Shown: positions 28,140 through 29,781 of the stretch, one piece after another
Numbering within the stretch: position 1 is the stretch's first letter
Layout: each line of letters opens with the position of its first letter
Source: Natrinema ejinorense
GTDB taxonomy: Archaea > Halobacteriota > Halobacteria > Halobacteriales > Natrialbaceae
Length of the DNA stretch: 64,000 nucleotides
NCBI RefSeq assembly: GCF_002494345.1
Contig: NZ_NXNI01000001.1
Coordinates: forward strand, 310,001 to 374,000
Reading direction: 5' to 3'
Translations under genes and position numbers: made by a program
Notes under the pieces: model-generated
The model's input: the letters and a program-made list of their open reading frames with translations, nothing else
Database searches by the model: none
What the model was told of the DNA's origin: nothing

Positions 28140-28501
28140 GCCGTCGGTTCGCTCGAGCCGATTGGTTCGGCAGCATGGCCGTCGTAACGTGTCTCGAACG
28201 ATGGTACAAACGCTTCACGCTGATCGCGACGCCATCGTGCCTCGGACGTGGATTGACTTTCAGTGGCTACTGTCGCGTGGATAAGCGAGTCCGAGCCGGC
28301 CAGGCCGACAGTCGTGACTGGCGATTCGTGGCGGTCGAACGGGAAACGCGCTGGCTGGGATTTGAACAACGCGAAGACGTTCCTCTCACTCACTTCGTTC
28401 GCTCGAGGCTGCGACTTCTCTCGTTCAAATCCAGATCCGATTTCTCTGAACGCGGCTACTCGCGTTGCTACGCAACGCTCGTAATATTGTGTTCAGAGAA
28501 A
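28140..28501. other. Non-coding interval with tRNA-Gly 3'-end remnant
   Basis: No gene is visible in these 362 bp. The stretch 28348-28501 holds a 20-bp duplicate of the tRNA-Gly 3' end, an inverted partial T-arm (GTTCAAATCCAG, 28423-28434) and a nested inverted repeat abutting the tRNA. Together these resemble the footprint of past integration events. Confidence 0.6.
28348..28367 (-). repeat. Duplicate of tRNA-Gly 3' end (candidate att scar)
   Basis: GCGCTGGCTGGGATTTGAAC on the plus strand is identical to 28503-28522, the 3'-terminal acceptor and T-arm part of tRNA-Gly, 155 bp away in the same orientation. tRNA-targeting integrases leave this kind of direct repeat. Confidence 0.65.
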
Positions 28502-28502
28502 T
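28440..28502. repeat. Nested inverted repeat next to tRNA-Gly
   Basis: ATTTCTCTGAAC (28440-28451) and GTTCAGAGAAAT (28491-28502) are perfect 12-bp inverted repeats. Inside them GCGTTGC (28462-28468) and GCAACGC (28472-28478) form a second hairpin with loop TAC. The outer arm ends at the tRNA discriminator base. It may terminate the tRNA transcript or be a recombination arm. Confidence 0.6.
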
Positions 28503-28572
28503 GCGCTGGCTGGGATTTGAACCCAGGTTGTGACCATGGCAAGGTCACGTGATACCACTACACTACCAGCGC
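28502..28572 (-). tRNA. tRNA-Gly (GCC)
   Basis: The 71-nt gene folds as a cloverleaf. The acceptor GCGCTGG pairs with CCAGCGC, with discriminator A. The anticodon stem TGACC/GGTCA encloses the loop TTGCCAT with anticodon GCC. The T-loop is TTCAAAT between CTGGG and CCCAG. CCA is not encoded and no intron is present. A TATA-like CTTATACA lies upstream at 28604-28611. Confidence 0.96.
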
Positions 28573-28630: not shown

Positions 28631-28654
28631 ATCGCCATGCTGCAGCATGGCGAT
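28631..28654. repeat. 24-bp perfect palindrome
   Basis: The half-site ATCGCCATGCTG is followed directly by its exact reverse complement. It lies 59 bp upstream of tRNA-Gly and about 220 bp upstream of the SPOUT gene. Perfect palindromes of this length are typical dimeric regulator sites or cruciform elements. It is not part of a gene. Confidence 0.75.
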
Positions 28655-28875: not shown

Positions 28876-29781
28876 ATGACTGTCAGCGTACTCGTGCCGT
28901 CGTCGCTCAGCCGGGAAGCCGAGGACAAACGCGAGGCCACTCGCAAACTCGGATACGTCGCCCGCGCGGCGACGATCTTCCGGGCGGATCGCCTGATCGT
29001 CTATCCCGATCGGGACGGCGAAACAGGGCGATTCGACGGCGGGTTCGTCACCACCGTGTTGCGGTACGCCGCAACGCCCCCATACCTCCGCAACGAGGCG
29101 TGGGGGATGCGGGACGAACTCGAGTACGCAGGCGTCTTGCCGCCGCTCCGCGCCATGTCACAGACCGGCTCCGAATCTACCGGTTCGGGGTCGTCAAGAC
29201 AAGGAATCGTGACCGAGGTCGGACCTGAAGGACGCGTCCGGGTCAATTGCGGACTGCAACACCCGATCTCCCTCAACGTACCGCCGAACATGGCGGTCGA
29301 GGAGGGGGAGCGCGTGACCGTCAGGATCTCTTCGCGACGACCGGTCCGGGCGAAGCTCGAAGACGTTCCCCTTCCGGGGCTCTCGATCGAGCAGACGGAC
29401 CTGCGGGCAGCACTCGGCCGTGAGGACGCCGGCGTTCGTATCGCGGCCTCCCGATTCGGTGAGCATCTCACCGTCGGGCGGCTCGAGACGCTGGCCGGAC
29501 GCGTCCAGCGCGATGGGATGACCGTCGCCTTCGGCGCGCCCGAGAGAGGGCTGCCGGCTATCCTCGGAATCGAGGAATCGGCCATCGACGCGTCGTCCGG
29601 ACAAGACGGCGCAGTCGAACCGTCGTCCAACCGGGACGACGCAGCCGATAACGGAGTCGAACCCACCGCCGATCCGGGGTTCGACCTCTGGCTAAACACG
29701 GTTCCGGATCAGGGAAGCGAGGTCGTGCGAACGGAGGAGGCTCTGTTCGCGACCCTCGCTCCCCTCTCACTGAGAGAGTGA
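28876..29781 (+). CDS. Putative SPOUT-type RNA methyltransferase (RNA uridine N3-methyltransferase family)
   Basis: The protein has 301 residues. MTVSVLVPSSLSREAEDKRE, KLGYVARAATIFRADRLIVY and TPPYLRNEAWGMRDELEYAG match the DUF171/SPOUT family that precedes L3 in archaeal ribosomal operons. An inserted OB-like domain covers about 105-160. The trefoil-knot part should be formed by the two ends; AFGAPERGLPAIL is the likely SAM-site loop. The acidic insert near 235-265 is haloarchaeal. It probably modifies rRNA. Confidence 0.88.
   Translation: MTVSVLVPSSLSREAEDKREATRKLGYVARAATIFRADRLIVYPDRDGETGRFDGGFVTTVLRYAATPPYLRNEAWGMRDELEYAGVLPPLRAMSQTGSESTGSGSSRQGIVTEVGPEGRVRVNCGLQHPISLNVPPNMAVEEGERVTVRISSRRPVRAKLEDVPLPGLSIEQTDLRAALGREDAGVRIAASRFGEHLTVGRLETLAGRVQRDGMTVAFGAPERGLPAILGIEESAIDASSGQDGAVEPSSNRDDAADNGVEPTADPGFDLWLNTVPDQGSEVVRTEEALFATLAPLSLRE

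Follow-up and report, generated by a model that had tools for sequence, protein, structure and literature searches.

Short two-hairpin units ending in a copy of the tRNA 3' end behind tRNA genes of haloarchaea

Behind the tRNA-Gly(GCC) gene of Natrinema ejinorense, and behind tRNA genes of many types in its order, we found a short unit that starts at the position of tRNA nt 74 and ends with a copy of tRNA nt 53-73, leaving the tRNA itself whole. At several tRNAs one relative has a unit and another lacks it, with exact boundaries, and many tRNA types carry the matching tail together with an inverted T-arm piece that on average matches them better. The units also form tandem arrays in which the inner copies are less decayed. 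Because presence and absence are precise, the tRNA is restored, additional units are tRNA-proximal and cores are shared, we consider the units to be probably small, non-autonomous, gene-less cassettes that insert at the 3' ends of tRNA genes and duplicate the tail.

Anatomy of the unit

The window analysed here is a stretch of 64,000 nucleotides of N. ejinorense (contig NZ_NXNI01000001.1, positions 310,001 to 374,000). Boundaries of its unit were taken from the homology profile and from empty sites at other tRNAs. In window coordinates, the features of the locus are as follows.

28502-28572, minus strand: tRNA-Gly(GCC), the anchor gene (ARAGORN; Rfam RF00005, 66.7 bits)
28502-28522, minus strand: nt 53-73 of tRNA-Gly(GCC)
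28347-28501, minus strand: entire 155-bp unit, running from the first base past the discriminator through the tail copy
28440-28501, minus strand: hairpin hpA, abutting the discriminator base of tRNA-Gly
28440-28451 and 28491-28502, minus strand: arms of the outer stem of hpA, a perfect 12-bp inverted repeat
within hpA, minus strand: inner stem GCGTTGC-GTA-GCAACGC with a GTA triloop
28457-28483: second palindrome, nested within the 12-bp inverted repeat
28423-28434, minus strand: inverted T-arm piece CTGGATTTGAAC (tRNA sense), the left arm of hpB
28348-28434, minus strand: hairpin hpB, with core GAGAGAAGTCGC...CGTCTTCGCG and tip CGAACGAAGTGAG
28347-28367, minus strand: tail copy of tRNA-Gly nt 53-73, the right arm of hpB

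Read in tRNA sense, tRNA-Gly is followed by hpA, by the inverted T-arm piece and by the rest of hpB, which ends in the tail copy. A sequence-only reading of this DNA had described a direct repeat of 20 bases of the tRNA 3' end 155 bp away, an inverted T-arm-like piece between the repeats, a 12-bp inverted repeat ending at the discriminator base and nested palindromes, and we recovered all of these. The 20-nt repeat of nt 53-72 is exact at 28348-28367 with a start-to-start spacing of 155, and its extension to 25 nt has 96% identity. The full tail copy agrees with tRNA-Gly nt 53-73 at 20 of 21 positions, nt 73 being G and not A. The piece CTGGATTTGAAC complements tRNA-Gly nt 53-65, leaving one bulge, and the arm of the hpA outer stem terminates exactly on the discriminator base.

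By an arithmetic estimate, the chance of an exact 20-mer repeat within 1 kb is about 1e-9, and a chance repeat is ruled out by the exact 20-nt repeat together with its spread. A second, decayed tRNA-Gly gene was also rejected, as the inverted piece and the hairpins are foreign to a tRNA body and the homology ends at nt 52/53. A repeat search found no inverted repeat joining the two ends of the window unit. The only Rfam models reaching gathering score in the window are tRNA and an L4 leader; no curated Rfam family matches the unit, and RtT is likewise without a match in the window. The leader match (L4-Archaeoglobi, 75.2 bits, 29225-29324, plus strand) lies inside a predicted ORF at 28876-29781, upstream of an L3-like ORF (ribosomal protein L3 by eye). 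Upstream of tRNA-Gly there is a perfect 24-bp palindrome at 28631-28654 (ATCGCCATGCTG/CAGCATGGCGAT), and palindromes resembling it occur at the equivalent place in some relatives.

Throughout the family the units are gene-less, measure roughly 100 to 200 nt and consist of the two hairpins hpA and hpB; 90% have their tail copy about 80-190 nt past the tRNA. In a set of 154 tRNA-unit pairs, the block of homology corresponds to tRNA nt 53-73 and drops off on both sides: the per-position identity is 0.28 at nt 51, 0.79 at nt 52, 0.99 at nt 53, 0.90 at nt 73 and 0.60 at nt 74, where nt 54-73 belonged to the search query and the drop at nt 51/52 did not. First tail copies are exact in 113 of the 154. 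Of the 148 units left once the 6 of 154 outside 45-260 nt had been dropped, 124 have an inverted piece that pairs with the tail copy, compared to 6 in shuffled regions. The inverted piece also suits the tRNA in front of it better than tRNAs assigned by permutation (0 of 500, 100 units), although this test is weakened by the parser having picked the wrong word in several of the 100 units.

Hairpin tips are GNA in 118 of 167 triloops versus 8 of 63 in shuffles, and GNA triloops are exceptionally stable in DNA. GNRA tetraloops showed no enrichment, with 4 of 58 versus 9 of 106 shuffled under RNA parameters and 2 of 91 versus 8 of 130 under DNA parameters; GNA-triloop hairpins are not enriched in the window as a whole (3 and 3, shuffles 0-5). 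The sets behind the homology, pairing, triloop, mismatch and polarity figures are biased to tRNA-Gly(GCC) and to T-arms GTTCAAATC, because those patterns recruited many loci, and the unbiased counts are those from the genome of the window (G000) and from genome G061. A second kind of unit was seen at the tRNA-Arg(gcg) flank (loci L332-L360), in which the inverted piece GGTCCTGACG complements the acceptor strand and not the T-arm, and the copy is shorter (CTCCGTCAGGACG).

Distribution of the units

The search of the unit genome-wide and in relatives, which the sequence-only reading had proposed, placed units behind 16 of the 44 parsed tRNA genes of the genome of the window, a unit being called by its own 20-nt tail with at most 4 mismatches 60-450 nt downstream. 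The carriers are Ile, two Lys, Gly, Phe, two Val, Arg, two Asp, two Ser, His, two Leu and a diverged Met. Units are single or in tandem, each with the tail of its resident tRNA. Two genomes gave 34 tail-like words downstream of their tRNAs, 32 of which fit the resident tRNA and 2 of which fit another one weakly (4-5 mismatches in 20); movement of whole cassettes with their tails between different tRNAs was rejected, as these two genomes have no foreign tails beyond the two weak words.

For tRNA-Gly(GCC) we searched 60 relatives and kept the better-matching loci of 29, which with the own locus gave 30. One of them (L028, at a contig edge) is unscorable, and 24 of the 29 scorable loci have at least one unit, several in tandem. 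That the arrangement might be fixed at this tRNA in distant species, as a functional terminator would be, held in part: the arrangement is there in other genera and in another family, but it is not fixed. Since the hairpins and the number of units vary and 5 of the 29 loci have no recognised unit, it is not a fixed terminator.

A looser hpB pattern matched 239 of the 293 genomes of the order, across which the reversed control pattern had no match, and 6 of 311 other genomes of the phylum with one or two matches each; one displayed match among those 6 resembles a tRNA T-arm itself. Scanning 84,980 species with the hpB pattern gave at least 120 stretches, and 71 of 80 among the matches listed have haloarchaeal titles. 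A tail copy of the own tRNA lies downstream in 67 of 83 loci checked (the 80 listed matches and 3 viral ones). Haloferax species other than H. volcanii are among the carriers. None of the 3 matches on viral contigs is a unit sited behind a recognised tRNA. A search with the window's unit alone as the query had no phage match, and close carriage of this unit by known phages was rejected. A 987-kb Natrinema plasmid has a related unit behind a tRNA-Glu-like sequence, and the hpB of this unit resembles that of the window (80 bp, 92.5%). The tRNA-Glu-like sequence is rejected as a tRNA by both ARAGORN and Rfam, and the stretch with the plasmid unit gave nothing in Rfam at E 0.1.

Two other loci are described here in their own right. 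In a MAG titled uncultured bacterium (L114, 3604-3880, 43% GC), a tRNA-Asp(GTC) has behind it two hairpins with an inverted T-arm piece between them and then an exact tail copy with about 8 further bases, which is the same layout outside haloarchaea and possibly convergent. In the genome of the window (L043, G000:C1:450335-457087), about 2.4 kb lie between tRNA-Gly(TCC) and a displaced 3' tRNA fragment with a unit still attached, which looks like the integration of an island between the tRNA and its unit.

Gain, loss and arrays

Genomes G000 and G061 carry one species label. For 14 of the 35 tRNA types that are single-gene in both, the two genomes have different numbers of units. Five of these types differ cleanly by one exact tRNA-proximal unit, with a flank identity of 0.86-0.97, and the sequence past the tail copy is the sequence found directly past the tRNA in the other genome. 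Among these, Arg(gcg) and Ser(gga) have a unit in G061 and none in G000, at Phe and His G000 has one unit more than G061, and at Met the additional unit of G061 sits between the tRNA and an older unit common to both. At Ile and Leu(taa) the differing unit is internal (2 of 14), and 7 of the 14 types have no clean junction. The tRNA-Gly locus had no clean empty pair.

At Ser(gga), G000 is empty and G061, G010, G011 and, less cleanly, G015 and G006 have units ahead of the same flank, the number of units being 0, 1 or 2. At Arg(gcg), 15 of the 29 genomes of the genus are occupied and 9 are empty, and 5 with other arrangements were left unscored. The 60-nt flank of G000 is matched past the unit at 0.73-0.98 in 14 occupied genomes, with only 0.63 in the fifteenth (G008), and directly past the tRNA at 0.77-1.0 in the 9 empty ones. 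One genome counted as empty (G017) has a unit further downstream, behind the flank rather than at the tRNA. On a quick tree from upstream DNA, which leaves out the 5 genomes with other arrangements and has two very long end branches (G022 and G019), occupancy needs 6 changes, at least 5 of them on well-supported branches and with gain and loss not distinguished. Occupancy is not clearly clustered on this tree (72 of 500 shuffles were as low), and the sister pairs G026/G007 and G009/G001 differ in it. Within the genus, genomes differ in the family of unit found at Arg(gcg) and at Ser(gga).

Among 78 arrays with at least 2 copies, the second copy is more mismatched than the first in 37, less in 8 and equal in 33 (p=1.5e-5). 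We also compared hairpin cores in ten genomes. At different tRNAs, hpB cores reach an identity of at least 85% in 3 of 497 pairs within one genome and in 12 of 4073 between genomes; one of these 15 pairs is formed by two Lys types, and some pairs have a member in common. For the same tRNA in other genomes the figure is 3 of 232, which is proportionally commoner than 12 of 4073. For hpA there are 7 pairs at least 85% identical, all at the same tRNA type and 0 at different types. In genome G128 almost the same hpB core lies behind tRNA-Lys, tRNA-Met and tRNA-Arg, with flanking arms that differ.

Taken as an inserted cassette, new units would enter beside the tRNA and would be lost through recombination between the 21-nt repeats. 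A putative recombinase or transposase supplied in trans would recognise the hairpins, and the reaction may act on the hairpins of one strand. The tail would originate in the target tRNA or in a pool of cassettes of the same tRNA, and hpB cores would pass between tRNAs. Candidate routes to a matched tail and inverted piece are copying of the target, an exchanged pool of same-tRNA cassettes and continual re-templating of the hairpin arms. Some observations count against the cassette reading. The inverted piece is tRNA-specific, an outcome not expected of plain target-site duplication, and recombination between the 21-nt repeats suffices for precise loss. To these are added the sharing of hpA at the same tRNA only, the proportionally commoner sharing of hpB cores at the same tRNA, the internal and unclean differences, the G017 unit behind the flank, the missing phage match of the window's unit and the arrays, 8 of 78, in which the outer copy is better preserved.

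The ORFs of locus L021 gave no lead to a gene-carrying autonomous relative. In G008 (L011, 1782-2627) an ORF resembling an HNH nuclease by eye lies directly behind a decayed tRNA-Gly unit, but nothing links it to the units.

Alternative explanations and known systems

A single ancient origin followed only by unequal recombination, gene conversion and palindrome correction, with no dedicated mobility, could also account for the units, and we regard it as a serious but rather unlikely account. The 21-nt direct repeats ease precise loss, the Ile and Leu(taa) differences are of internal units, some arrays contain identical tandem units (units 1 and 3 of L249, for example), and template switching could hold the inverted piece matched to the tail. 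Against it, Arg(gcg), Ser(gga) and Phe are occupied in one genome while the other has no template, unless all of these are losses; in addition, hpB cores are common to different tRNA genes, and the family of unit at Arg(gcg) and at Ser(gga) varies between genomes of the genus. The reading as a scar of an excised or decayed element found no support. A private scar is contradicted by units in relatives, at many tRNAs and across the order. A larger virus or plasmid that integrated and was then excised or deleted at tRNA-Gly would leave a direct repeat of the tRNA 3' end typical of integrase-made attL/attR, and larger islands with partial tRNAs are reported for haloarchaeal tRNA-His and tRNA-Glu genes (PMC3119063). 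The same structured content nevertheless recurs at many tRNAs order-wide, an integrase gene would not fit in the unit and the window's unit as the query had no phage match, which together make such a remnant very improbable. The other suggestion of the sequence-only reading, a minimal non-autonomous integrating unit, is well supported by the precise occupied and empty sites and by the duplication of nt 53-73 at several tRNAs.

The units might instead be functional RNA of the tRNA trailer, a dispensable regulatory RNA that is born and lost, in which co-transcribed hairpins aid 3' processing, termination or tRNA folding and the second acceptor strand competes. In its favour, position, strand and anatomy recur across the order. 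In an alignment of 9 Arg(gcg) units, 15 of the 42 predicted pairs changed on both sides and GU outnumbered AC by 26 to 6; for 18 Ser(gga) units the figures were 11 of 21 pairs and 25 to 12. The structures behind these figures were predicted with GU allowed, and the counts are not independent, as related units repeat the same mismatches. These counts conflict with symmetric scoring, in which GU and AC are similar (87 versus 77, p=0.48), unlike in tRNA acceptor stems (GU 23, AC 0). In single mismatches, with the 24 of 148 poorly pairing units left out, hpB has 61 G.A versus 3 C.T, which suggests that the tRNA-sense strand folds; hpA does not show this excess (10 versus 17). When positions 28340-28572 of the window (minus strand) are folded as RNA by prediction, the 5' acceptor strand of the tRNA pairs with the distal tail copy and not with its 3' partner in the tRNA, which might act as a switch if the unit were transcribed. 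TTTT lies within the first 12 nt behind 12 of the 31 tRNAs that have units and behind 6 of the 57 that do not, whereas few tRNAs of either group have TTTTT within the first 100 nt (3 of 31 and 4 of 57). A trailer RNA also has to accommodate the 28 of 44 tRNAs in the genome of the window that lack a unit, exact gain or loss at one tRNA within the genus and the missing enrichment of GNRA tetraloops, and we find it unlikely.

We compared the units to known systems. The 3' ends of tRNA genes are favoured landing sites of prokaryotic mobile DNA. Archaeal tRNA-targeted integrative elements (proviruses and tyrosine-recombinase plasmids) share with the units the tRNA 3' site, the restored tRNA, the direct repeat and the precise empty sites. 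The units differ from them in being made of hairpins, with 155 bp in the window and so too short to encode an integrase, and in forming a family on many tRNAs per genome with own tails, tandem arrays and an internal inverted T-arm piece. The 178-bp repeats of E. coli tyrT (tRNA-Tyr 3' end, rtT RNA) are likewise tandem units behind a tRNA gene, each repeating the tRNA 3' end, and they are known from few operons of one bacterial group; we know of no precise gain or loss of tyrT repeats at many tRNA types and of no inverted T-arm piece in them. Compared to a MITE, which shares its terminal inverted repeats with a transposon, the unit is without an end-to-end inverted repeat, and its duplication is tRNA nt 53-73 instead of a short, fixed target duplication. 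Arrays of CRISPR and of integrons grow with polarity at a fixed anchor and have ordered cassettes, and the integron attC works as a folded single strand. The tRNA units may resemble these in polarised growth beside a fixed anchor (37 versus 8 arrays; clean proximal extras at 5 of 14 types, internal ones at 2), but they carry no gene and resemble one another. CRISPR spacers come from foreign DNA; the window unit, as the query, had no phage match.

Short gene-less elements of haloarchaea are also described in Haloquadratum, namely SMRs of about 80-110 bp and PATEs, some of 52 bp, which are mobilised in trans by an enzyme that is unknown or of IS605 type (PMC3119063). As far as the accessible part of that description goes, SMRs have terminal inverted repeats, neither SMRs nor PATEs have a target duplication, and tRNA specificity does not appear (PMC3119063); the tRNA unit, in contrast to SMRs and to the IS605-type PATEs, has a 21-nt duplication. 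A palindrome motif of one archaeon lies just behind about half of its tRNA genes as well, but according to the partial text available it is short and fixed (two 5-nt words 9 nt apart) and is said to be species-specific, and no tail copy or tandem unit is described there. The unit lacks a defining feature of each mobile family tested, whether the integrase, the terminal inverted repeats or the absence of target duplication, SMRs and PATEs being compared by description. We found no description of such units in the literature searched, of which subscription journals were a thinly covered part and in which only portions of some sources were accessible, and an earlier description is possible; the haloarchaeal unit family is apparently undescribed.

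A more specific proposal, which we hold to be doubtful, is an integron-like haloarchaeal system in which hairpin cassettes of folded single-stranded DNA are loaded beside tRNA genes. The inverted T-arm piece would be a guide pairing with the target tRNA gene, and a change of guide would retarget the cassette. If the cassette reading is true, order-wide gene-less cassettes with polarised arrays and tRNA-matched ends would be a new kind of mobile unit, perhaps with a new recombination chemistry, and they would matter for the annotation of tRNAs, for the processing of tRNA 3' ends in halophiles and for the way in which proviruses hit or miss the tRNAs that they target.
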